NCBI RefSeq assembly: GCF_021246445.1
Contig: NZ_JAJQXW010000006.1
Location: 1 to 35,971 of the forward strand
Source: Rhabdothermincola salaria
Lineage (GTDB): Bacteria > Actinomycetota > Acidimicrobiia > Acidimicrobiales > Acidimicrobilacustridaceae
Direction: 5' to 3'
DNA: 35,971 nucleotides
Below the pieces are notes generated by a model. That model was not told where the DNA came from, searched no databases, and saw nothing but the letters and a program-made list of their open reading frames with translations. Position numbers and translations under genes: made by a program. Below are positions 4,141 through 33,320 of the stretch, in pieces. The first letter of the stretch is position 1. Every line of letters starts with the position of its first letter.

Positions 4141-6078
<1,938 letters not shown>

Positions 6079-6146
6079 CGGCGTTGCCCCTTCCCCGTGG
6101 TCGCGGTCCCCAGGGGGCCGACACTACCGATCGGGCGACGCCGCCA

Positions 6147-7313
6147 TCACCGCTCGGGCGCGCCGGCTCCGACGTCCCATCGCACGACCACGAAGCCGCC
6201 GAGCCCGGAGGGGTCGAGCAACGCCTCGGCCTCGCTCACCCGGCTGCGGCCTCGCAGGGCCTCGAGGTCGCCCAGGTGGGCGCGCTCGCGCCAGATCCGT
6301 CGCCCTTCTTCGACGAGGTCGTCGATGCCGTTGGCGAGCAGGAAGTCGGCCTGCGTGCTCACCGTCCCTCCCGGGCACCCCCGCAGGAGCTGGTCGACCG
6401 CGACGTCGGCGGTGATGTCCTGGGTGCCGGGGTCGTCGAGGGGGTGCCCGCCCCGTTCGTGGCCTCGGAAGGTGCGCAACCAGGCCAAGGGGGGCCGCTC
6501 GGCCAGGTCGGCATCGGAGGCGCCGTAGTCGACCACGAGCACCTGCCCCTCCGCCAGGCGGTCCCGGGCCCGGCCCACCCATGCCGCGGCCGCCGCCTGG
6601 TGGGGCACCCACACCCCCGCCGGCAACGCCCCGAGCACCACGTCGTCGGCGGAGGTGGGCCCGCGGGGCACGATCACCGGCGCGAACGCGGCGTCGCCGC
6701 CGCGGACCACGCGCAGCTCCTCGACGCCACCGCCGGTCGCCCGGGCCACCGGATCGAACGGGAGGTTGTCGAGCAGCTCGTTGGCCACCACCACCCCTCG
6801 GACGGTGGCATCGGGGAGGTCCGCGGCCGACACGACAGCCGGCCCGCGCCCGGCCCGGGGGGCGGTGACCACGGCCGTGAGGTCGCCACCGGCGCGCTCC
6901 CCCACCCAGGCTGGCTGGTGCGCGCCATGAGCGGCGCGCTGCGCGGCCGATGTCTCGACCAGGACGTGGACCAGTGCCTCGGCGCAGCGAGGACCGGCGG
7001 CCAGCACGGTGCGGGCCAGCGTGCCGGGTCCGGCGCCACCCTCGATGACGACGAAGGGGTCGGGACGCCCGAGCTCGTCCCAGGAGGCGTCGAGCACCCG
7101 GGCCAGCACGGCACCGAACAGCGGGCCGACCTCGGGGCTGGTGAGGAAGTCGCCCCGGCGGCCGGCCCGGCCACCCCCGGCGTAGAACCCTTCGCGGGGG
7201 TCGTACAGGGCGGCCTCCATGAACGACGAGAAGGCCAGAGGGCCGTCGGCGTCGATGCGAGCCAGCAGACGGTCGTGGAGGGACTCGTCCCCCGGGCCGG
7301 GCGGGGATGCCAT
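6147..7313 (-). CDS. MidA/NDUFAF7-type SAM-dependent methyltransferase (complex I assembly)
   Basis: A 388-residue protein of COG1565 (Methyltransf_28), the family of mitochondrial NDUFAF7/MidA. The N-terminus has the family sequence FMEAALYDPREGFYAG (31-46) followed by GDFLTSPEVGPLFG (54-67). The SAM-binding motif I is VIEGGAGPGTLAR (89-101), and VVANELLDNLPF (175-186) corresponds to the family's NE-DxLP motif. NDUFAF7 dimethylates Arg85 of NDUFS2 (the NuoD homologue) during complex I assembly. It lies 18 bases behind nuoN of the 11-gene cluster, in the same direction, so co-transcription and the same job here are reasonable inferences. NuoD of that cluster has the matching arginine (Arg69). 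It is predicted to be soluble and cytoplasmic. Confidence 0.9.
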   Translation of the reverse strand: MASPPGPGDESLHDRLLARIDADGPLAFSSFMEAALYDPREGFYAGGGRAGRRGDFLTSPEVGPLFGAVLARVLDASWDELGRPDPFVVIEGGAGPGTLARTVLAAGPRCAEALVHVLVETSAAQRAAHGAHQPAWVGERAGGDLTAVVTAPRAGRGPAVVSAADLPDATVRGVVVANELLDNLPFDPVARATGGGVEELRVVRGGDAAFAPVIVPRGPTSADDVVLGALPAGVWVPHQAAAAAWVGRARDRLAEGQVLVVDYGASDADLAERPPLAWLRTFRGHERGGHPLDDPGTQDITADVAVDQLLRGCPGGTVSTQADFLLANGIDDLVEEGRRIWRERAHLGDLEALRGRSRVSEAEALLDPSGLGGFVVVRWDVGAGAPER

Positions 7314-7331
7314 GGCGGCCTCCCCCGGCGG

Positions 7332-8843
7332 TCAGCCGCCGAGGCCGAGGAGGGTGACGGACTCGGTGAAGTGGGTGAAGGCCCGGGGGAAGACGCCCAC
7401 GGCCAGGGTGAGCACCGCGGTGATGCTGACGGCGGCCACCAACGACGGCGGCACCCGGATGGGCGTGACGTCGCCGTCGGGCGCGTCGTCCATCCACATG
7501 ACCCGCATGAGGCGGCCGTAGTAGGCGAAGGCGACCACGGAGTTCACGGCCACGAGCACGGCGAGCGAGTAGCCCGAGAAGTTGCCCGCGCTGGCCAGGG
7601 CCCGGAAGATCTCGAGCTTGCCGAACCACCCCGCCGCCGGCGGGATGCCGGCCAGGGCGAAGAGGAAGAGCGTCATGCACACCGTGAGAGCGGGGGCGTA
7701 GGAGAACAGCCCGCCGAAGCTGCTCAGCTCCGCCGAACGGGTCTTGCGGGCCACCGCGATGACCACGGCGAAGGCACCGAGGTTCATAGCCGCGTAGATG
7801 AGCAGGTAGACCACGATCGCCTGCAGCGAGGTGAGGCCCACGTCGCCACCCGTGCCGGCGATGGCCAGCGGGGCGAGGATGTAGCCGGCCTGGGCGATGC
7901 CCGAGTAGGCGAGCATGCGCACCACGTTGGTCTGGCGCAGGGCGATGAGGTTGCCCACGGTCATGGTGACGGCGGCGAGCACCCAGATGAGGGGCCCGTA
8001 GACGTCCTCACGGCCGTAGAGGGCGATGAAGACCAGCTGCAACAGGGCGACGAAGCCGGCGGCTTTGGAGGCCACCGCCAAGAAGGCGGTGATGGGCGTG
8101 GGCGCACCCTCGTAGGTGTCGGGGGCCCACGTGTGGAACGGCACGGCGGACACCTTGAAGGCGAAGCCGATGATCACGAACACGATGGCCAGGGTGACGA
8201 TCGGCTGGGTGTCGGCGGCCCCTCCGACCACTTCTCCGATCTCGGCGAGGACGGTGGTGCCGGTGAGCCCGAACAGCAACGACATGCCGTAGAGCAAGAT
8301 GGCCGAGGCGAAGACGCCCATCAGGTAGTACTTGAGACCCGCCTCGTTGCCCTTGCTGTCGCGCTTGCGCCAGGCGGCCAGCGTGTAGGCGGGGATGGAC
8401 AGCATCTCGAGGGCCACGAACATGGTCACGAGGTCGCGGGACGAGGCCATGACGAGCATGCCCACCACCGAGCCGAGCAGCACCTGGTAGTACTCGCCCT
8501 CCCAGTAGTCGCCCTCGGCGATGTAGTTGGTGGACAACAGCACGACCACGTAGGCCGAGGCGAGGAACAGGGCCTTGAGCACCAAGGCGAAGTCGTCGAC
8601 GACGTAGGCGCCGCCGAACATCACCCGGTCGGTGCCGTCCATGGCCAGGGTGACCAGCGGGATGGCCGCCACGAGCAGGCCGATGCCGGCGATCGTCGAC
8701 GACAGCCACCGACCGCTCTCGTCGGTGAAGGCATCGACGATGAGGACCAGCGACAGCACGCCGACCACGATCAGCTCGGGCGCGAGGGCGTGGAGGTCGA
8801 GCTGGGGGGTCTCCCAGGCGAAGGCGGCCAACTGGGCGAGCAC
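7332..8843 (-). CDS. nuoN: Complex I subunit N, 11-gene cluster copy
   Basis: A 503-residue antiporter-like membrane subunit of NADH-quinone oxidoreductase with about 14 hydrophobic helices. The proton-channel residues expected for NuoN are present: Glu146 in ALEMLSIPAY and Lys230 in FAFKVSAVPFHTWAPD. It forms the proton pump nearest the peripheral arm. Start is GTG 8843, three bases after the nuoM stop. It is the last nuo gene of this cluster and is followed by the MidA-type methyltransferase. Confidence 0.95.
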   Translation of the reverse strand: MLAQLAAFAWETPQLDLHALAPELIVVGVLSLVLIVDAFTDESGRWLSSTIAGIGLLVAAIPLVTLAMDGTDRVMFGGAYVVDDFALVLKALFLASAYVVVLLSTNYIAEGDYWEGEYYQVLLGSVVGMLVMASSRDLVTMFVALEMLSIPAYTLAAWRKRDSKGNEAGLKYYLMGVFASAILLYGMSLLFGLTGTTVLAEIGEVVGGAADTQPIVTLAIVFVIIGFAFKVSAVPFHTWAPDTYEGAPTPITAFLAVASKAAGFVALLQLVFIALYGREDVYGPLIWVLAAVTMTVGNLIALRQTNVVRMLAYSGIAQAGYILAPLAIAGTGGDVGLTSLQAIVVYLLIYAAMNLGAFAVVIAVARKTRSAELSSFGGLFSYAPALTVCMTLFLFALAGIPPAAGWFGKLEIFRALASAGNFSGYSLAVLVAVNSVVAFAYYGRLMRVMWMDDAPDGDVTPIRVPPSLVAAVSITAVLTLAVGVFPRAFTHFTESVTLLGLGG

Positions 8844-8846
8844 CGA

Positions 8847-10406
8847 TCAGCTCCCTGCGTTGCCGAAGGCGGCGACGGTGTTGACGACGGCGGGGTCGGT
8901 GACCTTGAACAGCAGGTTCGGGTAGATGCCGAGCACGACGATCAGGGCCAGCATCGGCGTCCAGGCCACCCACTCGGCGGGCTGCACGTCGGTGATGTGG
9001 GGGTCGTCGGCGAATTCCTCGGTGGGTTCGCCGAACGCCACCCGCTGGTAGAGCCAGAGCAGGTAGGCGGCGGCGAGCACCGTGCCGAGGGCGGCGACGA
9101 CCATGTAGACCCGGAACAGCGCCTCGTTCAGGTCGCCGCCGGGGTTGTAGGCCGAGAGGATCGCCGGGAACTCGCCCCAGAAGCCGGCCAGGCCGGGCAG
9201 ACCGAGCGAGGCCATGGCGGAGAAGCCCAGGATCCAGCCCATGCGGGGAGCCTGCTTGAGCATCCCGCCGAGACGCCCGATCTCGAGGGTGTGGTAGCGC
9301 TCCTTGGTGGAGCCGGCCACGAAGAAGAGCATCCCGGTGATGAGGCCGTGGGCGACCATGCCGAAGATGGCCGCGTTGATGCCGAAGTCGGTGAGGGTGG
9401 CGATGCCGAGCATCACGAAGCCCATGTGGGCCACGGACGAGAAGGCGATGAGGCGCTTCATGTCGGTCTGGGCCAGACAGCACAGCGCCCCGTAGATGAT
9501 GCCGATGACGGCCAGCAACCCGATGAAGGGCGCCCACCGTTCGGCCGCTTCGGGCAGGATCGGCAGCGAGATGCGCACGAACCCGTACGTGCCGAGCTTC
9601 AGCAGCACCGCGGCCAGGATCACCGAGCCCACCGTGGGGGCCTGGGTGTGGGCGTCGGGCAGCCACGAGTGGAACGGGAACATGGGCACCTTGATGCCGA
9701 AGCCCATGAACATGCCACCGAAGATCCACAGGGCCGCACCGATGGAGATGCCCTCGGCGGCGGCCGGCAGCTGGGTCATGTCGAAGGTGTGGCGCATGAC
9801 GCCGTCGACCATGATCTCGTCGGAGAGGAAGTACAGCGCCATGAAGCTGACGATCATGAGCGCCGAGCCGAACAGCGTGTAGAGGAAGAACTTCATCGAC
9901 GCGTAGCGGCGCTTCTCGCCGCCCCACACGCCGATCATGAAGTACATCGGCAGCAGCACGACCTCGAAGAACACGAAGAACAAGATGAGGTCCTGGGCGG
10001 CGAACGTGCCGATCATGCCCGTCTCGAGGATGAGGATCAGTGCCAGGAACGCCTTGGGGTTGTGCGGCTCCGGGAAGTGGTTCCACGAGTACACGATGCA
10101 CAACGGCACCACCAGCATCGTGAGGGCGATGAGCGGCAGCGAGATGCCGTCCATGCCGACGATGTAGCGGCTGTTGATCACCGGGATCCACGCCTTGTCG
10201 ACGAAGAACTGCAGCGCTCCCGCGTCGTCGTAGTCGAAGTTGGTGAACAGCAGCACACCGACCAACGCCACCGCGAGGGAGGTGACGAGGGCGGTGACCT
10301 TGATGAGGTACTCGTCCTTCTTGGGGATGAGCATCACCACGGCCGCACCGACCAGCGGCAAGAACACCGCCAGGCTGAGGCCCCAACCGTTCAGGAAGTC
10401 TTTCAT
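8847..10406 (-). CDS. nuoM: Complex I subunit M, 11-gene cluster copy
   Basis: A 519-residue antiporter-like membrane subunit. Key residues are Glu148 in FFEVVLLPMY and Lys239 in GIKVPMFPFHSWLPDAH, the latter motif being diagnostic of NuoM. The C-terminal half contains GTYGFVRISLPILPEA. The ATG at 10406 has AGGAAA eight bases upstream. It lies 19 bases after nuoL and three bases before nuoN. The product has about 14 membrane helices. Confidence 0.96.
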   Translation of the reverse strand: MKDFLNGWGLSLAVFLPLVGAAVVMLIPKKDEYLIKVTALVTSLAVALVGVLLFTNFDYDDAGALQFFVDKAWIPVINSRYIVGMDGISLPLIALTMLVVPLCIVYSWNHFPEPHNPKAFLALILILETGMIGTFAAQDLILFFVFFEVVLLPMYFMIGVWGGEKRRYASMKFFLYTLFGSALMIVSFMALYFLSDEIMVDGVMRHTFDMTQLPAAAEGISIGAALWIFGGMFMGFGIKVPMFPFHSWLPDAHTQAPTVGSVILAAVLLKLGTYGFVRISLPILPEAAERWAPFIGLLAVIGIIYGALCCLAQTDMKRLIAFSSVAHMGFVMLGIATLTDFGINAAIFGMVAHGLITGMLFFVAGSTKERYHTLEIGRLGGMLKQAPRMGWILGFSAMASLGLPGLAGFWGEFPAILSAYNPGGDLNEALFRVYMVVAALGTVLAAAYLLWLYQRVAFGEPTEEFADDPHITDVQPAEWVAWTPMLALIVVLGIYPNLLFKVTDPAVVNTVAAFGNAGS

Positions 10407-10425
10407 CAGTGGCTTTCCTGGGTTC

Positions 10426-12630
10426 CTAGAGGACGAAGACGAAGACGCCGGCCAAGACCGTGGCAGCGGCGAAGAGGATGGCGCCGTACTGCTGGACCTT
10501 GCCGGTCTGCAGACGACGCAGGAGCTGGCCGGAGGCCTCGGAGGCCGTACCCGAACCGTTCACGAGGCCATCGACCACGAACTGGTCGACGCCGCGGTAG
10601 ACGACGCCGGAGGCCTTCCGGAAGACCGTCGCGGTGCCATCGACGATGCCGTCGATGACGTTCTGGTTGAACCAGTTCGCGGCCCGGGCCAGGGGGCCCT
10701 TGGTGTTGGCCGCGATGATGTCGGTGTAGAGGTGGTCGAGGTAGTACTTGTTCTCGAGGATGGTGTAGCCGCCCCGGGCCAGGCGACTGCGGGCCATGAG
10801 GCCGTGCGGGCCCAGGTTCTTCTCGTAGTACGCGTAGGCCGCGAAGAGCCCGGCGACCGCCAGCACGGTGGACAGCAGCGCCACCCAGGGCACGAAGCCC
10901 GAGTGCGCCACCGCGGGGAAGACGAAGTTCGGCTCGACGTAGTCCTCGAAGGGGTGGACGAACGCGCTGGGGAGCTCGAGGCCGAAGAAGTTCGCCGGGA
11001 AGTTGAAGAACCCGAAGGTCACCGAGGCGATGGCCAGGATGACGAGCGGCACGGTCATGACCCTCGGCGACTCGTGAGGCGTGCCGTGGCCCCGGTACTC
11101 GCCCCAGAAGGTCATCCAGTAGGCCCGGCCCATGTAGGCCGCCGTCATGAAGGCCGTGATGAAGCCCATGACGAGCATGAAGGTGTAGGCCTGCTCCTGC
11201 CCGACCGCGGCGCCGGCGAGGATCTCGTCCTTGGACCAGAACCCGGCGAAGGGGATGATGCCGGCGAGGGCCAGCGTGGCCAACAAGAACGTGATGTGAG
11301 TGGTCTTCATGTACTTGCGCAGGCCACCCATCTCACGCATGTCGAACGTGTGGTGGGCCGCATGGCTGACCGAGCCGGCACCGAGGAAGAGGCAGGCCTT
11401 GAAGAAGGCGTGGGTGAAGAGGTGGAACACGCCGGCCGTCCACGCCCCCACCCCGAGGGCCATGACCATGTAGCCCAGCTGGGAGATGGTCGAGTAGGCC
11501 AGGACCTTCTTGATGTCGTACTGCACGAAGGCGAGGACGCCGCCGATGATGGTGGTGAGCCCACCGATGAGGGCCACGTAGTGGAACGAGCTCGATCCGA
11601 TGGCCAGACCCGACCAGAACACCGGGTACAGGCGGGCGATGAGGTAGACGCCGGCGACCACCATGGTGGCGGCGTGGATGAGCGCAGACACCGGGGTGGG
11701 CCCGGCCATGGCATCGGGCAGCCAGGTGTGCAGCGGGAACTGGCCCGACTTCGAGGTGACACCGGCGAACAGGCACAGCGCACCCACGAGCAGCAGGGTG
11801 GTGTTGGCCCCCGGCGAGAGGGCGTACTCGTTGATGTGCAGCACCCCGAAGCTGGTGGCCCCGGCGGCGAAGAAGGTGATGGTGACGCCGATGATGAGGC
11901 CCATGTCGCCGACACGGTTGGTGAGGAAGGCCTTGAGGGCGGCGTCGGAGTTCTTCTTCTCCTCCCACCAGTGCCCGATGAGGGCGAACGAGCAGAGACC
12001 GACGAGCTCCCAGCCCACCAGCATCTGCAGCGTGTTCGAGCTGATGACGTAGAGCAGCATCGACGCGGTGAACAGCGACAGGAAGGCGTAGTAGTGGGTG
12101 AAGCGCCGATCGCCGCGCAGGTACTCGGTGGAGTAGATGTGCACCAGCAACGAGATGATGGTCACCGTCACCAGCATCATGGCGGTGAGCCCGTCGACCA
12201 GGGTGCCGGCCTTGAACTCGATGCCTCCGATCTGGAACCACGTGACCTCGGCGACCACCGGAGTGACGGCGGCCTCGGCCTTGCCCTCCCCGGCGGCGGC
12301 GGCGAGCTCGCCGGCGGCGCTCTCACCGGTGCCGGGGCCGATGGGCGTGACGACCGCGGCGGAGTGGCCCTCGGCGCCGGCCTCCGCTGGCGGAGGCAGC
12401 TCCACGCCCTGCAGCTCCGAGGAGGGCACCGAGGTCGGCGGGTCGTCGACCCGCTGGATCCACTGGCCGGCCACGACGAGCGACAGCAGCAGGCAGACGG
12501 AGACCGAGGCGATGCCGATGCCGGCAGTGGCCCTGGTGCCCAGACGCTTGCCGAAGAACAAGATGGCCACGAACGACACCGCCATGAGGGCGGGGAGGAT
12601 CCAGACCTGGTCGAGGAGATGGGGGATCAC
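10426..12630 (-). CDS. nuoL: Complex I subunit L, 11-gene cluster copy, with Ala/Glu-rich insert
   Basis: A 734-residue distal proton-pumping subunit with a long C-terminal lateral helix region. Conserved features are GWELVGLCSF with Glu208, TSKSGQFPLHTWLPDAM with Lys294, and SALIHAATMV. It is longer than usual (about 610-650). Much of the excess is an alanine/glutamate/proline-rich stretch at residues about 62-128, between the second hydrophobic segment and IGGIEFKAGTLVDGL, which is unlikely to be folded. GTG start at 12630, seven bases after nuoK. Confidence 0.96.
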   Translation of the reverse strand: MIPHLLDQVWILPALMAVSFVAILFFGKRLGTRATAGIGIASVSVCLLLSLVVAGQWIQRVDDPPTSVPSSELQGVELPPPAEAGAEGHSAAVVTPIGPGTGESAAGELAAAAGEGKAEAAVTPVVAEVTWFQIGGIEFKAGTLVDGLTAMMLVTVTIISLLVHIYSTEYLRGDRRFTHYYAFLSLFTASMLLYVISSNTLQMLVGWELVGLCSFALIGHWWEEKKNSDAALKAFLTNRVGDMGLIIGVTITFFAAGATSFGVLHINEYALSPGANTTLLLVGALCLFAGVTSKSGQFPLHTWLPDAMAGPTPVSALIHAATMVVAGVYLIARLYPVFWSGLAIGSSSFHYVALIGGLTTIIGGVLAFVQYDIKKVLAYSTISQLGYMVMALGVGAWTAGVFHLFTHAFFKACLFLGAGSVSHAAHHTFDMREMGGLRKYMKTTHITFLLATLALAGIIPFAGFWSKDEILAGAAVGQEQAYTFMLVMGFITAFMTAAYMGRAYWMTFWGEYRGHGTPHESPRVMTVPLVILAIASVTFGFFNFPANFFGLELPSAFVHPFEDYVEPNFVFPAVAHSGFVPWVALLSTVLAVAGLFAAYAYYEKNLGPHGLMARSRLARGGYTILENKYYLDHLYTDIIAANTKGPLARAANWFNQNVIDGIVDGTATVFRKASGVVYRGVDQFVVDGLVNGSGTASEASGQLLRRLQTGKVQQYGAILFAAATVLAGVFVFVL

Positions 12631-12637
12631 GGTCAGC

Positions 12638-12952
12638 TCAGCCCTTCAACAGATCGAGCTCGGTGACGTCGATGCTCTGTCGGTTGCGGTAGATCATCAT
12701 CACCATGGCCAGGCCGACGCCGACCTCGGCGGCGGCGATGGCGATCACGAACAGGGCGAAGACCTGGCCCGTCATGTTGGTGATGTCACCGGCGTGCCAC
12801 ATGGCCCCGAAGGCGACGAGGTTGATGTTGACGGCGTTGAGGATGAGCTCGATCGACATCAGGATCATCACGCCGTTGCGGCGGGCGAGCACCCCGTAGA
12901 CGCCGATGCAGAACAAGATCGCGCCGAGGAAGAGGAACTGGTTGACGAGCAT
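12638..12952 (-). CDS. nuoK: Complex I subunit K, 11-gene cluster copy
   Basis: A 104-residue, three-helix membrane subunit. The two conserved membrane glutamates are present: Glu35 in MSIELILNAVNIN and Glu76 in AAAEVGVGLAM. Together they form part of the proton path between NuoH/J and NuoN. ATG 12952, three bases after nuoJ. The length is normal for the family. Confidence 0.97.
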   Translation of the reverse strand: MLVNQFLFLGAILFCIGVYGVLARRNGVMILMSIELILNAVNINLVAFGAMWHAGDITNMTGQVFALFVIAIAAAEVGVGLAMVMMIYRNRQSIDVTELDLLKG

Positions 12953-12955
12953 GGG

Positions 12956-13465
12956 TCAGTCCCGCCTTGCCAGGACGATGGCCCCGACCAGGGCCACGAG
13001 CAGGAGCACCGAGATCACCCAGAAGGGGATCAAGAAGGTGGAGAAGATGGAGTCGCTGACCTCGGCGGTGCGCTGGACGGCGATGTCGCCGAACTCTCGG
13101 TCCTCGAAGCCGTCCCAGAGGGCGAAGCCGAGCAGGCCGGCGAGGATGACCCCGATGCCGGCGGCGACGGCCTTGGCCGGGCCCGGGTTGTCGAGGTCGT
13201 CGGTGCGGCCGATCTTGGAGCGGGTGAGCATGATGCCGAACAGGAACAGCACCATGATGGCGCCGAGGTAGACCAGCACCTGAGTGATGGCCACGAACTC
13301 GGCGGCCAACAAGATGTACTGGGCGGCCACGCCGGCGAGGACCAGCACCAGCCAGAGGGCGGCGTGCATGATGTTCTTGCTGGTGACCACGCGGATGGCC
13401 CCGAAGACCATCAGGGCGGCGATCACGTAGAACGCGATGTTCTGGGCGACGAGCAGGGCGAGCAT
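12956..13465 (-). CDS. nuoJ: Complex I subunit J, 11-gene cluster copy
   Basis: A 169-residue membrane subunit with five hydrophobic helices. It contains the conserved VYLGAIMVLFLFGIML segment, which carries the pi-bulge helix of NuoJ. ATG 13465-13463 overlaps the TGA of nuoI (ATGA), which fixes the start over longer upstream frames. Its partners are NuoA, NuoH and NuoK. The C-terminus ends shortly after the last helix. Confidence 0.95.
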   Translation of the reverse strand: MLALLVAQNIAFYVIAALMVFGAIRVVTSKNIMHAALWLVLVLAGVAAQYILLAAEFVAITQVLVYLGAIMVLFLFGIMLTRSKIGRTDDLDNPGPAKAVAAGIGVILAGLLGFALWDGFEDREFGDIAVQRTAEVSDSIFSTFLIPFWVISVLLLVALVGAIVLARRD

Positions 13466-13968
13466 CAGTCTCGAGGCACCTTCTTGACCTTGGCCTCGGA
13501 GCCGGCCTCGTAGGCGGGGAAGTCCGGGACGGTCTGCATCCACTGGCCCAAGCGGGTCTTGTCGTGGAGCAGGTCGGCGATGCGGACCTCGGAGTACTCG
13601 TACTCGGGGCTCCAGAAGAGGGCCTCGAAGGGGCAGACCTCGACGCAGATGCCGCAGTACATGCACAGGGCGAAGTCGATGTCGAAGCGGTCGAGGGCGT
13701 TCTTCTGGCGGGGCTTGCCGCCCTCACGGCGCGGAGGCGCGAGGTACTTGTGGGCCTCGATGAAGATGCACCAGTCGGGGCACTCGCGAGCGCACAGCAT
13801 GCACGCGGTGCAGTTCTCCTCCTTGAGCGAGATCACACCCCGCGCACGCGGCGCGGGGAGCTCCTTCTCGTGGGGGTAGAGCGTGGTCTGGGGGCCCGAG
13901 GTGAGGGTCTTGACCATCTCACCGAACGTGACACCGAGGCCCTTGATCAGACCTGGGACCTGAGGCAT
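13465..13968 (-). CDS. nuoI: Complex I subunit I (two 4Fe-4S clusters), 11-gene cluster copy
   Basis: A 167-residue peripheral-arm protein carrying clusters N6a and N6b. Two complete ligand sets are visible: Cys53, 56, 59 and 63 in [11 protein letters not shown], and Cys102, 105, 108 and 112 in [11 protein letters not shown]. It passes electrons to NuoB. In a complex without NuoEFG this would be the electron entry subunit. Start is ATG 13968, directly abutting the nuoH stop. It is shorter than the copy in the 14-gene set and has no histidine-rich tail. Confidence 0.97.
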
Positions 13969-15006
13969 CTAGAGCACCACCTTGAGCACGCCGGTCACGA
14001 GGATGTTCACGAGTGAGATGGGGATCAGCACCTTCCAGGCGAAGGACTGCAGCTGGTCCTCACGGAAGCGGGGGTAGGTGAAGCGGACCCAGAAGATGAT
14101 GAACGACACGAGCATCACCTTGGCGAACAGCACGATGGGCCCGAGGACGTAGTACCAGTCGCTCGAGGTCGAGAGCCACGGGACCGCCCAGCCACCGAGG
14201 AAGAGCACCGATGCGATCGCCGCGAAGGCGAAGGCGGTGGCGAACTCGGCGAGGAAGAACAACAGGAACCGGAAGCCCGAGTACTCGACCTGGTAGCCGC
14301 CGACGATCTCGGACTCGGCCACCGGCATGTCGAAGGGGGGCTGGGTGAGCTCGGCCTGCACGGCGGCGAGGAAGATCACGAACCCGACGAACTGGGTGAG
14401 GATGAACGGGTTGCCGATGCCGCCCCAGCCGAAGATCTCGCCGTCGGCCTGGGCGAACACGATGCCGTTGAGGCTGAGGGTGCCGGCCTGGATGACCACA
14501 CCGACGACCGCCAGCACGAGCGGGAGCTCGTAGGCGATGAGCTGCCCGGCGGCACGGAGCGCACCGATGAGGGAGTACTTGTTGGCCGAGGCCCAACCGG
14601 CCATCAGCACGCCGATGACCGACAGCGACGAGACCGCCAGCACGAAGAAGATGCCGGTGTCGAGGTCTTCGACGACGAGGTTCGGTGAGGCGGGGATGGC
14701 CACGTAGACGAGCAGCGTCGAGACGAGAACGACGATCGGTGCGGCCCGGAAGACGAACTTGTCGGCCCCGTTGGGCATGAGGTCCTCCTTCTGGAGGAAC
14801 TTCACGCCGTCGGCGAGCAGCTGCAGGGTGCCACGAGGGCCGGCTTCCTGAGGCCCGAGGCGGCTCTGCATCCAACTCATGACCTTGAAGAGGAAGACCA
14901 TGCCGAGGATGAGGGCGGTGGTGGGGACCACCGCGCTGACCACGAGGACCTTGATGACGGTCGACAGCCAGTAGGGCGGGTCGAACGCGGCGAGGAGGAG
15001 GGTCAT
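13969..15006 (-). CDS. nuoH: Complex I subunit H, 11-gene cluster copy
   Basis: A 345-residue membrane subunit forming the quinone cavity floor, with about eight helices. Conserved loops are SRLGPQEAGPRGTLQLLADGVKF-like at the N-terminus and ELTQPPFDMPVAESEIVGGY in the middle, the latter the acidic loop lining the quinone tunnel. The ATG at 15006 overlaps the nuoD stop (ATGA). RVRFTYPRFREDQL-like residues near the C-terminus are also typical (here WVRFTYPRFREDQLQ). Confidence 0.96.
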   Translation of the reverse strand: MTLLLAAFDPPYWLSTVIKVLVVSAVVPTTALILGMVFLFKVMSWMQSRLGPQEAGPRGTLQLLADGVKFLQKEDLMPNGADKFVFRAAPIVVLVSTLLVYVAIPASPNLVVEDLDTGIFFVLAVSSLSVIGVLMAGWASANKYSLIGALRAAGQLIAYELPLVLAVVGVVIQAGTLSLNGIVFAQADGEIFGWGGIGNPFILTQFVGFVIFLAAVQAELTQPPFDMPVAESEIVGGYQVEYSGFRFLLFFLAEFATAFAFAAIASVLFLGGWAVPWLSTSSDWYYVLGPIVLFAKVMLVSFIIFWVRFTYPRFREDQLQSFAWKVLIPISLVNILVTGVLKVVL

Positions 15007-16178
15007 CGGTCGATGTCACCCAGGATGAAGTAGAGGCTGCCGAGGATCGAGATGAGGTCGGGGACGTAGACGCCCCGGGCCACCCACGGCACGATGGAGA
15101 TGTTGTTGAACGAAGGCGTGCGGATCTTGACCCGGAACGGGACCAGGTCACCCTTGGAGACGACGTAGTAGCCCATGGCGCCGAGGGGGTTCTCGGTCTC
15201 GACGTACGCTTCGCCCTCGGGCACCTTGATGATGCGCGGCACCTTGGCCATGACCGGACCGCCGGGCAGCGAGTCGAGCAGCTGGTCGACGATGAGGGTG
15301 GCTTCGCGGGTCTCCTGCAGACGCACCCACGTGCGGGCGTAGCAGTCGCCGTCGGGGTGGGTCCAGACCTTCCAGTCGGCCTGGTCGTAGGCCAGCCCGG
15401 GCGGGCACGCGTCGCGCCGCAGGTCCCAGTCGACCCCCGAGCCGCGCAGGTTGGCGCCGGAGAGCCCGTAGCTGAGGGCGATGTCGGCGGGGATGATGCC
15501 GATGCCGCGGGTACGAGCCTGGAAGATCTCGTTGCCCATCATCAGGGTCTCGGTCTCGTCGCAGAAGGCTCGGAGGCGCGCCATGGCGGCCTTGGTCTCG
15601 GCGATCCAGCCCTTGGGCAGGTCGTCCTTGAGGCCGCCGATGCGGTCGAAGTTGGGATGGAAGCGACCGCCGGTGGCCGCCTCGATCTGGTTGAGCACGT
15701 GCTCGCGGTCACGGAAGGCGTAGAAGCCCATCGTCATGGCCCCGAGCTGCAGGCCGAAGTCGCCGAGGAACAGCGAGATGTTGGCGATGCGGGCCAGCTC
15801 GAAGAGGATGGTGCGGATGTGCTGGGCCTGCGGCGGGGCCTCGACCTCCATCAGCTTTTCGGCGGCGAGGATGAATGGCACCTCGTTGGCGAAGCTGCCG
15901 AGCCAGTCGATGCGGTTGATGAGGGCCGTGACCTGCGGGTAGGTGCGGACCTCGGTGAGCTTCTCGTAGCCGCGGTGCATGTAGCCCGGGATCGGTTCGG
16001 CGGTGATGATCTCCTCGCCGTCGAGCTTGGCGACGATGCGCAGGGTGCCGTGGGTGGCCGGGTGCTGCGGGCCCAGGTTGAGGGTCATGCCCTCGGTCTC
16101 GAGCTCGACGTTGACGCGGGCGTCGGCGGCCTGCGACGCGATGTAGGCGAGCTGGTCGCGCTCGCTGATGGCGGTCAT
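15003..16178 (-). CDS. nuoD: Complex I subunit D (quinone site), 11-gene cluster copy
   Basis: A 391-residue 49-kDa-type subunit forming the quinone-reduction site with NuoB. It contains [11 protein letters not shown] (34-44, with the quinone-site histidine), [10 protein letters not shown] (65-74) and VRTYPQ with the quinone-site tyrosine. Arg69 in the HRG motif matches bovine NDUFS2 Arg85, the residue methylated by NDUFAF7. The C-terminus ILGDIDR is the family ending. The ATG at 16178 overlaps nuoC by four bases. The other NuoD (30834-32171) has threonine at the arginine position. Confidence 0.97.
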
Positions 16179-16870
16179 TCGCCCTCTCCCTCGTCGTCGC
16201 CCTCACCGGGCAGCGGCTCCACGTCGACGATGCCCGGCCACGGACGCACCCGGCGGCTCAGCAGCGGGAAGTCCTTGCGCAGGGGGTGCCCCTGGAAGTC
16301 GGCCGGGAGGTACAGCTTGATCAGGTTGGGGTGCCCGTCGAAGGTGATGCCGAACATCTCGAAGCACTCGCGCTCGTGCCAGTTGGCCCCCCGGAAGTGC
16401 GGGGTCCAGCTGCCGATGCGCAGGTCGTCGTCGGCGATGTCGGCCTTGAGGTGCACGCCCATGCCGGCGGCGATGGAGTAGAGCCGGCCGATGACCTGGA
16501 AGCGGGTGTCGCCGCCGGCGTAGCCCTGCTGCAGGGGCCCGGGATCCTTGGGCTCGCCGCCGTGGACCGCCAGGTCCTCCTGGGCGTCCATGTCGCGCCC
16601 GTAGGGCGAGGGCAGCCAGTCGATGGCGGAGAGGTAGTCGAAGAAGTCGTAGCCCAGGGCCTTGAGCTCGGCCGCGGCCTGGGGCCAGGCGTCGCGGTCG
16701 ACGCGAACCCAGAGGTCGTCGAGAGGACGGATGTGGGAGCCGACGACGGCGTCGCCGAGGGCCGCGGTGATCTGGCCCAGGAGGGCCTCACGGGGCTCGT
16801 CGACGAGCGGCGCCTCTTCCTCGGGCGCCTCGGTCTCGGTGGACGTGTCAGCCGACGACAATCGGATCAC
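16175..16870 (-). CDS. nuoC: Complex I subunit C (30-kDa type), 11-gene cluster copy
   Basis: A 231-residue peripheral-arm structural subunit. The family signature [17 protein letters not shown] and [16 protein letters not shown] are present near the C-terminus. GTG 16870 lies inside nuoB, overlapping its end by 23 bases; the first 30 residues are acidic and not conserved, so a shorter start cannot be excluded. The C-terminus has a short acidic tail ([10 protein letters not shown]). It is a separate gene, not fused to nuoD as in E. coli. Confidence 0.93.
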
Positions 16871-17348
16871 CCTTCCAACGAGCGGACATGTCCTCGTTCA
16901 AGATGCGCTCCTGGAGCAGGACCACACCCTCGAGCAGGGCCTCGGGCCGAGGCGGGCAACCGGGGACGTAGACGTCGACGGGGATGATCTGGTCGACGCC
17001 CTTGGTCACCGAGTAGCTGTCCCAGTAGGGGCCCCCGCAGTTGGCGCACGATCCCATGGAGATGACGTACTTGGGGTCGGGCATCTGCTCGTAGAGGCGC
17101 AGCACGGCCGGCGAGAGCTTGTCGGTGACGGTGCCGGCGATGACGACGAGGTCGGCCTGCCGGGGCGTGGCCGGGAACGGGATGACGCCGAGGCGCATCA
17201 CGTCGTAGCGGGGAGAGGCGAAGGCGGCCCCCATCTCGATGGCGCAGCACGCCAGACCCCACTGGTACGCCCAGATGGAGTACTTGCGGCTCATGTTCAG
17301 GAGCTTGCCGATGGACTTCGGCATGCGTCCGCTCTCGACTAGGCCCAT
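16848..17348 (-). CDS. nuoB: Complex I subunit B (cluster N2), 11-gene cluster copy
   Basis: A 166-residue subunit holding the terminal 4Fe-4S cluster N2. The expected ligands are present: Cys34-Cys35 in GLACCAIEM, Cys101 in GSCANCGG and Cys131 in [11 protein letters not shown] 17348 overlaps the nuoA stop by ten bases; longer in-frame upstream starts would lie within nuoA and encode non-conserved sequence. With NuoD it forms the quinone pocket. Confidence 0.96.
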
Positions 17349-17713
17349 CGGATGACCCCCTTGCGCCAGGCGTGGAGCAGGCCCAGGGCGAGCAGCACGA
17401 TGACCGAGCCCATGGCCACCAGGCCGAACCAGCCGTAGACCTCGAGACGGGTGGCCCACGGGAAGATGAACACCGCTTCGACGTCGAAGATGACGAACAT
17501 GAGGGCGAAGACGTAGTAGCGGATCTGGCTCTGCGACCAGGCGGTGCCCACGGCGTCGACGCCCGACTCGTAGGTCAGGTACTTCTGCTCCTGGGGGCGG
17601 GTCGGTCGCAGGATGCGACCGAGGCCCAGGAGCCCCGCGGCCAGACCGACGCCGACACCTGCGAAGATGGCGACCGTCAGGTACTGCCGCACGAAATCGG
17701 AGTACTCAGACAT
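17339..17713 (-). CDS. nuoA: Complex I subunit A, 11-gene cluster copy
   Basis: A 124-residue membrane subunit with three helices, first gene of the 11-gene cluster. The conserved [19 protein letters not shown] segment is present. In the loop after helix 1 the sequence is YESG (Ser50), where the other copy has YECG. The ATG at 17713 has no Shine-Dalgarno sequence, and a TAGGCT hexamer ends nine bases upstream, consistent with leaderless or near-leaderless expression. Confidence 0.95.
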
Positions 17714-17871: not shown

Positions 17872-19512
17872 TCACGGGCCGGTGGGAGCGACGACGCCCT
17901 GGTCGGTGTCGTCGACCTGCACCAGTGCCGGTTGTCCTTCGCGTGCGGGCTGGACGAGGGCGTCGGGCAGGATCCCGTAGAGCACCGTGACGACGACGCA
18001 GAGGCCGATGGCCAGACCGGCGCCGGCTGGGATCGGGAGGCGCTGGGCTCGCGTGGGCACGGTGCCGTCGTCGCCGTCGTCGGCGCCGGACATGAACATC
18101 GCCACCACGATGCGCAGGTACAAGAAGGCGGCGATGACCGCTGACACCATGGCCACGAGGGCCAAGGGGATCGACGAGGCGTCGACCGCCGCGGTGACGG
18201 CGTAGAACTTGGCGAAGAACCCGGCGGTGAACGGCACACCGGCCTGGGCGAACAGCAACAACGTGAACGCCGCCGCCAGCAGCGGGTTGGTGCGGGCCAG
18301 GCCCCGGTAGTCGGCGAGCTCGTGGCGTCCGTCGCCTCGACGGCCGACGACCGTGATGACGCCGAACGAGCCGGCCACCATGAAGGTGTAGGTGGCCAGG
18401 TAGAAGAGCACGGCGGCGGTGCCGTCGGCCGAGCCGGCCTCGACCGCCATGAGGATGAAGCCGGCGTGGCTGATGGACGAGTACGCCATCATGCGCTTGA
18501 CGTTGCTCTGCACGATGGCGAGGGCGGCGCCCAGCACCATCGACAGGATCGCCAGCGCGTAGACGATCGGCTTCCAGGTGGTGCCGTAGTTCTCGAAGGT
18601 GAGGACGAACACCCGCACCAGCCCGGCGAAGGCCGCCGCCTTGACGCCCGAGGCCATGAAGGCCACGACCGGCGACGGGGCGCCGTCGTAGACGTCGGGG
18701 CTCCAGGCGTGGAACGGCACGGCGGAGACCTTGAAGGCCAGACCGACGAGCATCAGGGCCAGGCCGAGCAGGAGCAACCCGTTCTCGGCGGGCACCACCT
18801 GGGCCATGAAGTCCTTGATGGCGATGAGGTTGGTGGACCCGGTGGCCCCGTAGACCAGGGCGACGCCGTAGAGGAAGAACGCCGAGGAGAACGAGCCCAG
18901 CACGAAGTACTTGAGGCCCGACTCCTGGGACTGGGCCCGGCGCAGGTGCATGGCGGCCAGCACGTACACGGCGATGGAGAGCGTCTCGAGGCCGAGGAAC
19001 ACGACCAACAGGTCGTTGGCCGTGGCCATCATGACGCCGCCGCTGGCCGAGAGCAGCATGAGCACGTAGAGCGCGGGGCCCTCGTCGAGGCCTTCGCGGC
19101 GCAGGTAGTCGTCGGCCAGCAGGGCCGTCAGGATGACCGCCATGCACACGACGACGGTGACGAAGAGCCCGAAGCCGTCGATGCCCACCATGCCACCGAC
19201 CGTGCTGAACGGCCCCATGACCTCGGCGCCGTTGTCCCACCACAGCACCTTCTCCCAGCCCTGGACGCGAGCCCATAGGGGGATGGTGGCGATGGCCGCC
19301 ACGGACGCCACGACGACGGTGGCGATGGCGTAGAAGGAGCGGGGGGTCCGGCTGCGCAGCACCGAGGAGAGAGTGAGCATCAACAGGGCGCCCACCATGA
19401 GCACGATGAGGGGCAACAGGCCCCGCCAGTCGACGGATGGTCCCTGCACCTCGACGATCTGGTCCCCCGGGACCGACGAGGCCTGGGCGAAGAAGGTGGC
19501 GAGTGCGCTCAT
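17872..19512 (-). CDS. nuoN: Complex I subunit N, 14-gene operon
   Basis: A 546-residue antiporter-like membrane subunit, last of the complete nuo operon. Channel residues are Glu176 in FLGLETLSIAVYVL and Lys261 in LAFKVSAVPFHAWSPDVYDGAP. The ATG at 19512 overlaps the nuoM stop. It is about 40 residues longer than the copy in the 11-gene cluster, chiefly through a longer N-terminal region and a longer C-terminus. A strong hairpin follows immediately. Confidence 0.95.
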   Translation of the reverse strand: MSALATFFAQASSVPGDQIVEVQGPSVDWRGLLPLIVLMVGALLMLTLSSVLRSRTPRSFYAIATVVVASVAAIATIPLWARVQGWEKVLWWDNGAEVMGPFSTVGGMVGIDGFGLFVTVVVCMAVILTALLADDYLRREGLDEGPALYVLMLLSASGGVMMATANDLLVVFLGLETLSIAVYVLAAMHLRRAQSQESGLKYFVLGSFSSAFFLYGVALVYGATGSTNLIAIKDFMAQVVPAENGLLLLGLALMLVGLAFKVSAVPFHAWSPDVYDGAPSPVVAFMASGVKAAAFAGLVRVFVLTFENYGTTWKPIVYALAILSMVLGAALAIVQSNVKRMMAYSSISHAGFILMAVEAGSADGTAAVLFYLATYTFMVAGSFGVITVVGRRGDGRHELADYRGLARTNPLLAAAFTLLLFAQAGVPFTAGFFAKFYAVTAAVDASSIPLALVAMVSAVIAAFLYLRIVVAMFMSGADDGDDGTVPTRAQRLPIPAGAGLAIGLCVVVTVLYGILPDALVQPAREGQPALVQVDDTDQGVVAPTGP

Positions 19513-21133
19513 CGGTCCGACTCCTCGGCGAGGGCGGAGTGGTCGTCGGCGGCGCCGTCGCCCTCGACGACGATCTCGAGCTCACGGCCGTCCTGGGTCA
19601 CCGGCTGGGTGAAGCCCGGGACCTCGGCCTCCATGCGGGCCACGACCCGCTTCACCGATGGTTCGATGCGGTCGAGGACGGGCTTGGGGTACACGCCGAG
19701 GAACACGATCAGGAACAGCAGCGGGACCATGACCAGGCGTTCGCTGAGGTCGAGGTCCGGGAAGAGCTTGTTGTCCTCGTCGGGTTCGCCGTGGAAGACC
19801 CGCTGGTAGGCCCACAGCAGGTAGAGGGCGGCGACGATGACGCCGGCGGCGGCCACCACGGCCCACCAGCGGTGGGAGATGAAGGTGCCGAGCAGGATCA
19901 GGTACTCGCCCACGAAGCCGTTGAGGCCCGGTACACCGATGGAGGACATCATCACGACGGTGAAGATGCCCGCGTAGACGGGGGCCACCTTGGCGATGCC
20001 CTTGAGCTTGGCGATCTCGTAGGTGTGGCGGCGCTTGTAGAGGAAGCCGAGCAGGATGAACAGCGCACCGGTGCTGATGCCGTGGTTGACCATCTGCAGC
20101 ACCGAGCCCTCGATGCCCTCCACGTTGAGGGCGAACAGCCCCATGACGGCGAAGCCCATGTGGGCCACCGACGAGTAGGCGACGAGGCGCTTGAGGTTCT
20201 TCTGCATGGCGGCGACGATGCCGCCGTAGATGATGCCGATGGCGCCCAGGGTGAGCATGACCGGCGCGAACCACACGGTGGCCTCGGGGAAGAGCTCGAG
20301 GCCGAAGCGCAGGAAGCCGTACGTGCCGAGCTTGAGCAGGATGCCGGCCAGGTCGATGGAGCCGGCGGTGGGGGCCTCGGTGTGGGCGTCGGGGAGCCAG
20401 GTGTGGAAGGGGAACGACGGGACCTTGACGGCGAAGGCCACTGCCATGCCGAGGAACAGCCACCGTCCGGTGTTGGTGGCCAGCGAGTCGCTGGCGATGA
20501 TCTTGGTGAAGTCGAAGCTCACCCCACCGTCGTCGCCGGCCCCGGCCAGCACGGCGAGGGCCACGATGGACACCAGCATGAAGGCCGAGCCCAGCATGGT
20601 GAACAAGAAGAACTTGGTGGCGGCGTACACCCGGCGGCCGTGGCCCCACTTGCCGATGAGCATGTAGAGCGGGATCAGGGTGATCTCGAACATCAAGAAG
20701 AACAGGAACAGGTCGAGGGCGAGGAACGCCCCCATGCACCCGCCCATGAGCACGGTGAGCCAGCCGTAGTAGCCCTTGACGTCGTGGTCGGGCTTGGCCG
20801 CGAACAGCGCGATGGGGAACAGCACGCCGGTGAGGGCCACGAGGAACAGCGAGATGCCGTCGACGCCGAGGAAGAACTTGATGTCGAGGGACTCGACCCA
20901 GGTCTGGCTCACGGTGAACTGGAAGCCGGGGTCGGCGGTGTCGAACTGGACGACGACGACGGCGGCCAGGATGCCGGTGAGCAGCGAGGCCAGCACGGCC
21001 ACCTGGCGGTGCAGCTCCGGCCGGGATCGGGGGATGAGCGCGATCGCCAGCGCCCCGACGAACGGCACCAGGATGAGGGCCGGGAGGATCGGGAAGCTCG
21101 GCGATTCCGCCGCGAAGAGAGAGGCGCTCAGCA

Positions 21134-21134
<1 letters not shown>
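19509..21134 (-). CDS. nuoM: Complex I subunit M, 14-gene operon
   Basis: A 541-residue antiporter-like membrane subunit. It shows Glu150 in FLMFEITLIPLYMLIGKWG, Lys237 in FAVKVPSFPFHTWLPDAHTEAP, and LLKLGTYGFLRFGLELFPEA, all typical of NuoM. GTG start at 21134 overlaps the nuoL TAG by one base. An acidic, probably cytoplasmic C-terminal tail of about 35 residues (ending ALAEESDR) is longer than in the other copy. Confidence 0.96.
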
Positions 21135-23188
<2,054 letters not shown>

Positions 23189-23195
23189 CGGTGCC

Positions 23196-23501
23196 TCAGC
23201 CCCTCAGCAGTCTGATGTCGTCGGCGGTGGCACCGGGCTTGCGCCGGACGACGGCCACGACCAGCCCCAGCCCGACGACGACCTCGGCGGCGGCGACCAC
23301 CAACACGAAGAAGACGATCACCTGCCCGGTGATGTCGTCGAGCATGACGCCGAACGTGACGAAGGACAGGTTGACGGCGTTGAGCATGAGCTCGACGCAC
23401 ATGATCATGACGAGCGGGTTGCGGCGCACCAGCAGTCCGACCGCACCGAGCCCGAACAGCACGGCCGACAGCACCAGGTAGGCCATGTCGAGGTTGCGCA
23501 T
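23196..23501 (-). CDS. nuoK: Complex I subunit K, 14-gene operon
   Basis: A 101-residue, three-helix membrane subunit with the conserved glutamates Glu37 (MCVELMLNAVNLSF) and Glu73 (AAEVVVGLGL). ATG 23501 overlaps the nuoJ TGA as ATGA. The length is normal for the family, and the basic C-terminus is followed by LLRG. Confidence 0.96.
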   Translation of the reverse strand: MRNLDMAYLVLSAVLFGLGAVGLLVRRNPLVMIMCVELMLNAVNLSFVTFGVMLDDITGQVIVFFVLVVAAAEVVVGLGLVVAVVRRKPGATADDIRLLRG

Positions 23502-24103
23502 CAGTGCTCGTCTCCCTCGGCGGGGGCGGTGAGCGGCTCGTCGCCCTGGTCGGTCATGGAGGCCGGCTCACCGATGGGCTCGACGTCCTTGGGTCGACGG
23601 GAGAGCACGACCGCGCCGACCACGGCAATGGTGAGCAGCCCGGCGGTGATCTCGAGCGGGAAGACGTAGGTGGTGAACAGCTGGCGCCCGATCTGGGCGA
23701 TGTTGCCGGCACCCTCCTCGAGGGCCCCGGTGACCGACCGGGCCCCGGTGACGGCGTCGGAGCCGCTGATGACCAGCACCGCGAGCACCGCCCCGACGAG
23801 GACCACCCCGACCAGGCCCGCCAGCGCCCGCTGGCCCACCAGGGGTTCGGTGGTGAGGTCCTCTTCCTGGTCGACGCCGAGGAGCATGAGCACGAACAGG
23901 ATCAGCACCACGATGGCGCCGGTGTAGACGATGACCTGCACGGCGGCCAGGAGCTGAGCGTCCTGGTTGAGGAACAGCACGGCGATGCCGAACAGGCAGG
24001 CCACCAGGCTGAGCGCCGAGTGCACGGGGTTGCGCGAGACGATGACCCCGAGGCCACCGGCCAACACGACGACCGCGCAGATGACGAAGACGGCGGTTTC
24101 CAA
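23501..24103 (-). CDS. nuoJ: Complex I subunit J, 14-gene operon
   Basis: A 200-residue membrane subunit with five helices and the conserved VQVIVYTGAIVVLILFVLML segment, reported here in part as VYTGAIVVLILFVLML. It starts with TTG at 24103, three bases after the nuoI stop; no ATG lies nearer the conserved N-terminus. A polar acidic C-terminal tail of about 30 residues (ending PAEGDEH) is absent from the shorter copy. Confidence 0.94.
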   Translation of the reverse strand: METAVFVICAVVVLAGGLGVIVSRNPVHSALSLVACLFGIAVLFLNQDAQLLAAVQVIVYTGAIVVLILFVLMLLGVDQEEDLTTEPLVGQRALAGLVGVVLVGAVLAVLVISGSDAVTGARSVTGALEEGAGNIAQIGRQLFTTYVFPLEITAGLLTIAVVGAVVLSRRPKDVEPIGEPASMTDQGDEPLTAPAEGDEH

Positions 24104-24106
24104 GAG

Positions 24107-24793
24107 TCAGTGCCCCCCGTGATCGTCGTGACCGGGTGCGTCGTGGCCGTGGTCGTCGTGACCGTCCTCGTCCACGAAGTCCGCCGGTGTGGTCACCCGG
24201 TCCTTGAGCTCCTGGCCGTCCTCGGGGGCGCGGACGCCGTAGCCCAGCTCACCCGACCAGCCGACCGACCCCTCGAAGCGGGCGTCGCCGGACGGCGCGG
24301 TGGCGCGCATCCAGGCCGAGGTGTGCTCGTCCTCGCCGGGTCGCCAGTCCTCCCAGGGCAGGTGCTGAGGACGCCCGTCGTCGTCGACCACCAGCTCTTC
24401 CTTGGTGTAGATGGCGTCGGCCCGGTTGGTGAACGAGAACTCGAACATCTTCGACTCGGTGATGGCCTCGGTGGGGCAGGCCTCGACGCACAGGTCGCAG
24501 TGGATGCAGCGCAGGTAGTTGATCTCGTAGACGTAGCCGTAGCGCTCGCCCGGCGACACGGGATCGTCGGGCGGGTTGTCGGCCCCGCGGACGTAGATGC
24601 AGCGCGCCGGGCACACGCCGGCACAGAGCTCGCACCCGATGCACTTCTCCATGCCGTCCTCGTAGCGGTTGAGGACGTGGCGACCGTGCACCCGGATCGG
24701 CTTGGGGGCCTTCTCCTTGGGGTACTCGGTGGTGACGCGCTGCTTGCGCCCCATCTGGCGCAGGCTGACGAGGAATCCGCCCAGATAGCCCAT
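24107..24793 (-). CDS. nuoI: Complex I subunit I, 14-gene operon, with His/Asp-rich C-terminal tail
   Basis: A 228-residue peripheral subunit carrying clusters N6a and N6b. Ligands are Cys51, 54, 57 and 61 in [11 protein letters not shown], and Cys96, 99, 102 and 106 in [30 protein letters not shown] follows as in actinobacterial NuoI. The final 19 residues (about 210-228) are almost entirely His, Asp and Gly and could bind metal. ATG 24793 lies two bases after the nuoH stop; longer frames upstream would run inside nuoH. Confidence 0.96.
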
Positions 24794-24795
24794 GG

Positions 24796-26001: not shown

Positions 26002-26148
26002 CGAAACTGCCTCCGTCGTCGGTCTCGGGGTGGACGCGGGGGGCCGGGGTCAGGCCACGCCCGCAAGGGGACGGCCTAGCCCATCGCACGGAGGTGGGGT
26101 CGCGCAACTCTGCTCGTCGGCCGGCTGCCACCGGTGCCCACGGACCCG
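26002..26148 (-). other. 147-base gap between nuoG and nuoH
   Basis: This is the only sizeable gap inside an otherwise overlapping 14-gene operon. I see no open frame of note and no convincing promoter or terminator. The only signal is the GGAGG ribosome-binding site just before nuoH. It separates the dehydrogenase genes (nuoEFG) from the membrane-arm genes. Confidence 0.5.
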
Positions 26149-32171: not shown

Positions 32172-32190
32172 CGGGCAGATACCGCCTGGT

Positions 32191-32730: not shown

Positions 32731-32732
32731 GA

Positions 32733-33320
<588 letters not shown>

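Follow-up and report, generated by a model that had tools for sequence, protein, structure and literature searches.

A midA/NDUFAF7-type methyltransferase gene joined to one of two coexisting complex I gene clusters in Rhabdothermincola salaria

Human NDUFAF7 methylates Arg85 of NDUFS2 (PMC3829151); the initial annotation of the DNA analysed here had named it as a mitochondrial complex I assembly factor that methylates NDUFS2. Both the human protein and its Dictyostelium counterpart are reported to bind NDUFS2 (PMC9006661). The equivalent arginine is described as symmetrically dimethylated in complex I of cattle, humans, Pichia and Paracoccus denitrificans (PMC3750175, 2013; PMC8042128), as an unmodified arginine in E. 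coli, and as a threonine in Thermus (PMC3750175, PMC8042128). A proteobacterial origin of MidA was argued in a 2018 Cell Reports paper, as judged from a PDB entry title and from the papers citing it (PMC8042128, PMC9006661, PMC6651691). Since the Paracoccus modification and the origin of MidA have both been published, enzyme and target are of known kinds; the family of the enzyme, the arginine it targets and one instance of the modification in a bacterium were already on record, and the bacterial role, which the initial annotation had called little studied, is less open than it supposed.

An inter-subunit arginine switch has also been described (Hameedi 2021, PMC8042128): Thermus carries threonine in NuoD and arginine in NuoB, and Yarrowia the reverse, Arg83 of Thermus Nqo6 occupying the position of Thr122 of Yarrowia NDUFS7 as a compensating switch. 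Two nuo clusters, one of them an 11-gene form without nuoEFG, have been reported in the marine Actinobacteria Candidatus Actinomarinales, with F420 proposed as donor for the 11-gene form (PMC7771536). The word "methyltransferase" is absent from the main text of that paper, and the accessible portions of it contain no Arg/Thr swap. Haloarchaea also lack NuoEFG (PMC8305020), and the electron donor of 11-subunit complexes is treated as an open question in the literature (PMC11238625).

Here, we analysed a stretch of 35,971 nucleotides of the R. salaria genome (contig NZ_JAJQXW010000006.1, positions 1 to 35,971, forward strand), referred to as the window, which holds two nuo clusters, as in Ca. 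Actinomarinales, together with a midA gene. The encoded protein shares its family with human NDUFAF7 and Dictyostelium MidA, and its fold with the latter, and the target of the human enzyme is the arginine equivalent to Arg69 of one of the two NuoD proteins (PMC3829151, PMC3750175). Unlike the human and Dictyostelium genes, midA of the window lies beside the genes that encode its presumed target; the bacterium has two complexes I, and midA goes with the 11-subunit one, which lacks NuoEFG. In contrast to the Thermus and Yarrowia comparison (PMC8042128), both states of the arginine switch coexist in this one genome, in adjacent clusters. New with respect to this background is that, where two complexes I coexist, midA is attached to the one of Arg type. 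The arrangements vary and include, at the extreme, a lone nuoD-midA pair separated from the genes of the remaining subunits. The literature matches listed included no report of midA next to nuo genes; the 2018 Cell Reports paper might contain one.

The methyltransferase gene and the two nuo clusters of the window

Positions 6147-7313 encode a protein of the NDUFAF7/MidA family (COG1565, PF02636), both by family and by predicted fold, as had been proposed in the initial annotation. The reading frame begins with ATG on the minus strand and specifies 388 residues in the ORF list, its codon GC content (0.83/0.55/0.91 at positions 1/2/3) is of coding type, and it is the sole PF02636 match in the R. 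salaria genome according to a genome-wide profile search. A plus-strand ORF at 6084-10658 (1524 aa), antisense to midA, nuoN and nuoM, was taken as a shadow of the GC-rich minus-strand genes and discarded.

A search of solved structures by sequence returned three distinct relatives at E ≤0.01. Two of them, 4f3n/4g67 from Burkholderia and 1zkd from Rhodopseudomonas, are bacterial COG1565/DUF185 structures and stand nearest among solved bacterial proteins in both sequence and fold; the third (5ztz/5zu0/5zzw) has the entry name protein arginine methyltransferase NDUFAF7 homologue. MidA is named in the titles of 5zu0 and 5ztz, and its source is Dictyostelium (PMC6651691). The predicted model of the window protein, built with 69 aligned sequences, has a mean pLDDT of 92.9, and nearly its whole chain matches the MidA fold. 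The six best Foldseek matches to it, each a COG1565/DUF185 or MidA chain, have E values of 8.2e-25 to 2.1e-21 (next, 4.5e-6), and VIA-align gave Z scores of 34.9 to 32.4 for COG1565/DUF185 and MidA entries (33.9 to 5ztz; 34.0 to 5zu0 over 346 residues, rmsd 3.3). The next family reached Z 15.0, and no other family came near Z 34 among the VIA-align matches listed. Alignments show that a glycine-rich motif, which we take to be the SAM motif, and the acidic motifs NE..D, DYG and PG..D, whose assigned roles we likewise presume, are kept in the protein; the columns invariant in the 69 sequences include N178, E179, L180, D182, N183, D262, Y263, D299 and T301.

Upstream of midA, two complete nuo clusters lie in tandem, comprising 25 genes on one strand, 14-gene first and then 11-gene, so that the 14-gene cluster is directly upstream of the 11-gene one. 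The midA-linked cluster is nuoABCDHIJKLMN (17713 down to 7332), and within the window nuoEFG are confined to the neighbouring 14-gene cluster. The features are as follows.

4141-6078, minus strand: acetyl-CoA synthetase-like gene (acs), 68 bases after midA (profile match)
6147-7313, minus strand: midA, NDUFAF7-type SAM-dependent methyltransferase, 388 aa (PF02636 Methyltransf_28, 92.2 bits against a cut-off of 23.3; sequence and fold comparisons)
7314-7331, minus strand: gap of 18 bases between nuoN and midA, with the ribosome-binding-like GGGGGAGG
7332-8843, minus strand: nuoN, 11-gene cluster (TIGR01770, 389.3 bits against a cut-off of 332.6)
8847-10406, minus strand: nuoM, 11-gene cluster (TIGR01972, over cut-off)
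10426-12630, minus strand: nuoL, 11-gene cluster (TIGR01974, over cut-off)
12638-12952, minus strand: nuoK, 11-gene cluster (PF00420)
12956-13465, minus strand: nuoJ, 11-gene cluster, start placed at 13465 (PF00499)
13465-13968, minus strand: nuoI, 11-gene cluster (NuoI models best though below their cut-offs; 4Fe-4S domains)
13969-15006, minus strand: nuoH, 11-gene cluster (NF004741, over cut-off)
15003-16178, minus strand: nuoD, 11-gene cluster, Arg type, proposed substrate (profile match, alignment)
16175-16870, minus strand: nuoC, 11-gene cluster (profile match)
16848-17348, minus strand: nuoB, 11-gene cluster, start placed at 17348 (alignment)
17339-17713, minus strand: nuoA, 11-gene cluster (profile match)
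17872-33788, minus strand: 14-gene nuo cluster with nuoE, nuoF and nuoG, an unlinked paralogue that serves as internal control (profile matches); its end genes are nuoA (33321-33788) and nuoN (17872-19512), and nuoE is at 30220-30834

The coordinates and the TIGR01770 match thus bear out the earlier statement that midA follows nuoN by 18 bases on one strand, joined to the 11-gene cluster. No promoter-like or terminator-like sites were found in 5950-7700, where hardly any would be expected by chance either. Upstream of the 14-gene cluster, an ORF at 34742-35872 has weak, below cut-off matches to cytochromes c (SoxX, c550, CcoP).

Arginine and threonine in NuoD and NuoB near cluster N2

The two clusters differ reciprocally at the sites of the described arginine switch.

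15972-15974, minus strand: codon CGC of NuoD Arg69, 11-gene cluster, aligned with the HRGxE arginine of Yarrowia (Arg121; bovine Arg85)
17130-17132, minus strand: codon of NuoB Thr73, 11-gene cluster, at the Yarrowia Thr122 site (site identity from the text of PMC8042128)
31872-31874, minus strand: codon ACG of NuoD Thr100, 14-gene cluster, equivalent site without a methylatable arginine (alignment)
33060-33062, minus strand: codon CGG of NuoB Arg87, 14-gene cluster, aligned with the Thermus Nqo6 arginine

The genome therefore holds a partner NuoD with the target arginine, Arg69, which aligns gap-free at the site with the HRGxE arginine of the Yarrowia (NUCM), Pichia and cyanobacterial chains. 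NuoD of the 14-gene cluster reads GYLHTGMERT; opposite its Thr100, the Thermus chain and 8e9g likewise have threonine. In NuoB the residues are exchanged: the 14-gene protein has AGR (Arg87), aligned to Thermus, and the 11-gene protein AGT (Thr73), aligned to mitochondrial chains.

The same exchange was found in other genomes. In 40 hand-picked clusters (34 in genomes with MidA, 6 in MidA-negative ones), NuoD-Arg was combined with NuoB-Thr in 20 of 20 clusters of one kind, and NuoD-Thr with NuoB-Arg in 20 of 20 of the other. Across 100 NuoD sequences read for the site residue, a selection from those listed, the residue follows NuoD type: the 11-type has 62 Arg and 1 Thr (63 sequences), and the high-scoring type 34 Thr and 3 Arg (37 sequences). 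A change of residue with MidA status within either NuoD type was considered and rejected, since Arg or Thr follows the NuoD type in genomes with and without MidA alike.

Because the midA-linked cluster encodes the target arginine and its neighbour lacks it, MidA very probably matures the 11-gene complex I, judging from sequence. More specifically, we consider it likely that MidA dimethylates Arg69 of the NuoD from its own cluster, beside N2 and during assembly, and that it is dedicated to the 11-subunit complex. In this mechanism, MidA would bind AdoMet and would dimethylate, presumably in symmetric fashion, Arg69 of newly made NuoD from the 11-gene cluster. In line with proposals for mitochondria (PMC8042128, PMC6651691), methylation would precede or accompany the docking of NuoD with NuoB around N2, and it may affect assembly. 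In the 14-subunit complex, NuoB would supply the arginine on that side of N2, and NuoD has none at the site for MidA to modify.

Linkage of midA to nuo genes within the class and outside it

The neighbourhood survey that the initial annotation had set as its refutation test revealed recurrent linkage. Of 30 loci from related genomes, 29 have a nuoN of the 11-gene type ahead of midA; the remaining one (L016) is a second PF02636 copy of G010, a genome that carries its other copy at the usual position. Among the best 80 named loci, nuoN was found upstream of midA on the shared strand in 74, the distance between aligned ends being within 400 bases in 70 of them and 825 to 3976 bases in four. In the six loci without nuoN, the sequence upstream of midA extends for no more than 1.6 kb in three (L189, L197, L249), for 2.6 kb in two (L213, L219) and for 10 kb in one (L252). 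The titles of these 80 loci are mostly Acidimicrobiia, Acidimicrobiales, Acidimicrobiaceae, Microthrix, Ilumatobacter or unclassified Actinomycetota, with three Acidobacteria and one Rubrobacter, and the counts of 29/30 and 74/80 are not independent because four loci are common to both sets. Arginine was present in all 40 NuoD sequences readable in the best 80 loci, and threonine in all 20 readable NuoB sequences. The nuo-midA contig titled Rubrobacter sp. (JADDPU010000310.1; L054, L212) resembles the class of the window, its NuoD being 79% identical to that of the window, and is probably a contamination of that assembly.

A profile search detected MidA in 53 of 61 relatives. Among the matches listed, and with NuoD type assigned by score, MidA occurs together with 11-type NuoD in 50 relatives (one of these NuoD being a fragment) and without it in three, six have neither, and two have 11-type NuoD without MidA (Fisher, 50/3 vs 2/6, p 4e-5; descriptive only, as kinship is ignored). 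The three MidA relatives without 11-type NuoD are fragmented drafts whose midA contigs (L005, L009, L025) still show nuoN before midA. In the two with 11-type NuoD and no MidA, only about 3.6 and 4.3 kb of contig remain beyond nuoD on the side where, in the window, midA lies 7.7 kb away.

Part of this class-level linkage may be plain synteny, since acs follows midA on the shared strand in 65 of the best 80 named loci, at less than 1 kb in 47. We know of no role of acs in complex I, and this frequent neighbour of midA, with no evident tie to the complex, is not thought to be part of the function. Taken to its full extent, inherited gene order would mean that midA lies between nuoN and acs in the class by chance, with no functional tie to complex I. 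Such an explanation is in keeping with the MidA tree of 46 rows, in which the nuoN-linked rows group together (2 changes), apart from the nuoD-linked rows; this tree included one in three of L002-L031, with overlong ORFs trimmed to their last 420 residues and with L016, L025, L052, L055, L057, L059 and L060, which gave no ORF hit, left out. We nevertheless regard it as improbable, given that among the relatives MidA follows the presence of the 11-type cluster, and given the arrangements found outside the class.

In a sample of the phylum, PF02636 was detected in 89 of 296 genomes and the NuoD family, among the matches listed, in 275. By hand, 45 of the 89 MidA genomes were chosen to spread over families, along with 54 of the 207 genomes without a match, and 40 midA regions were fetched as a selection from those listed. 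Within the 39 hand-chosen MidA genomes outside the class, midA is at most 10 kb from an Arg-type (11-type) nuoD in 13, belonging to eight of 20 families, and no Thr-type nuoD was found within 10 kb of midA (13 to 0); in those outside-class genomes with both NuoD types, midA lies near the Arg type rather than the Thr type by 11 to 0. The other 26 of the 39, many of them fragmented, have no placed nuoD within 10 kb of midA. A binomial evaluation of this linkage, with a chance rate of 2% set by the analyst, is descriptive only. Eighteen of the 40 fetched midA loci hold nuoD, and each of the 17 that reach the site has arginine.

The arrangement of nuoD and midA varies among these loci: the genes may be convergent and 30 bases apart (L048), overlap by 4 bases (L047, L068) or lie on one strand (L061). 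In 11 of 12 fetched nuoD-linked loci nuoD is the sole nuo match, the exception being a 4-kb contig (L069) in which a 31% nuoC match adjoins nuoD. All nine genomes examined for it have such a split pair, with a NuoB 66-70% identical to the 11-type NuoB of the window encoded apart from nuoD-midA, on another contig in six (drafts and one seven-contig genome) and 125, 197 and 281 kb away in three; this NuoB has threonine at the site in 9/9. One of them is G083, a single contig of 9.17 Mb that from its size and family looks like a Streptomyces chromosome, where nuoABC-HIJKLMN with no nuoD match is at 5.177-5.187 Mb and nuoD-midA at 4.978-4.980 Mb. There, the convergent pair (L058) is about 197 kb from the second nuo cluster (L301, G083:C1:5173500-5190500), and it adjoins genes that by eye resemble a two-component system.

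In the MidA tree, the nuoD-linked label requires 4 changes, at least 2 of them forced by well supported branches. Taken together, the repeated nuoD linkage, its varied arrangements and the tree indicate that inheritance of a single ancestral gene order is not enough to account for the data. The claim that genomic context argues for an action of bacterial MidA on complex I is thus supported as an inference of that kind, by recurrent linkage and an Arg-type partner; what did not stand is its generality, as the tie is to one of two complexes I and not to complex I at large. In 14 named control genomes, PF02636 was found in three (Caulobacter vibrioides, Synechococcus elongatus and Haloferax volcanii), and the NuoD family, among the matches listed, in eleven, including these three.

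Possible substrates of MidA and the purpose of a proposed methyl mark

Several results argue against an exclusive pairing of MidA with Arg-type NuoD. Three of the 45 chosen MidA genomes (G151, G264, G334) showed Thr-type NuoD only, an Arg NuoD being read in the other 42, and in the two whose clusters were fetched (G151, G264) NuoB has Arg. High-scoring-type NuoD in MidA genomes has arginine in three of 29 cases (G242 twice, G306). In the MidA-negative genomes, arginine was present in 31 of 32 11-type NuoD read, and the proposal that Arg-type NuoD alone explains the presence of MidA was consequently rejected. A Fisher comparison of the chosen genomes (42/3 vs 29/25, p 1e-5), in which the 29 are 11-type matches of at least 250 bits, two of them unread, ignores kinship and is descriptive only. 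Arg-type NuoD without MidA, together with the unmodified arginine of E. coli, implies that the mark is not generally needed.

The three Thr-type genomes would also suit a MidA acting mainly on some other substrate, be it protein, RNA or DNA, its linkage to complex I reflecting shared regulation only. The presence of several PF02636 genes per genome, as in G245 (four contigs), G182 and G223 (families f66, f69), suggests other substrates for some members, and DNA methylation in E. coli has been reported for a Wolbachia MidA, a result that its authors call preliminary (PMC12455994). For the gene studied here we find this explanation improbable, somewhat more so than inherited order, as the linked partner is precisely the NuoD paralogue with the target arginine and as midA is paired with nuoD alone in some loci. 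That MidA is in these bacteria an assembly chaperone of NuoD without catalysis, as the binding of NDUFS2 by NDUFAF7 of human and Dictyostelium (PMC9006661) could suggest, is very improbable in view of the invariance of N178, E179, D182, D262, Y263 and D299 in 69 sequences, of which E179, D182, D262, Y263 and D299 are shared with the Dictyostelium protein in the alignment.

Dimethylation of Arg69 in the 11-subunit complex remains the reading that we prefer, and one genome offers for it a matched pair, a complex I with a methylatable NuoD arginine and a complex I without, the enzyme being attached to the former. Bacteria thereby offer an internally controlled way to test the purpose of the mark, which is unsettled in mitochondria, and midA linkage provides a gene-based predictor of which coexisting complex I is modified. 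As a tentative extension, which we think rather unlikely, MidA might serve in Actinomycetota with two complexes I as a maturase reserved for the 11-subunit complex, and the methyl mark on Arg69 might act as an identity check that licenses NuoD for Thr-type NuoB only and prevents the mixing of subunits between the two complexes; break-up of the cluster would then leave nuoD-midA as the minimal pair, and the two genes would stay together in evolution for that reason.

Two irregular nuo reading frames, which may reflect sequencing error, decay or recoding, were also encountered during the survey: a nuoM with one in-frame TGA (G067:C100:4850-6379) and a nuoD fragment with two (G082:C2:8-589).
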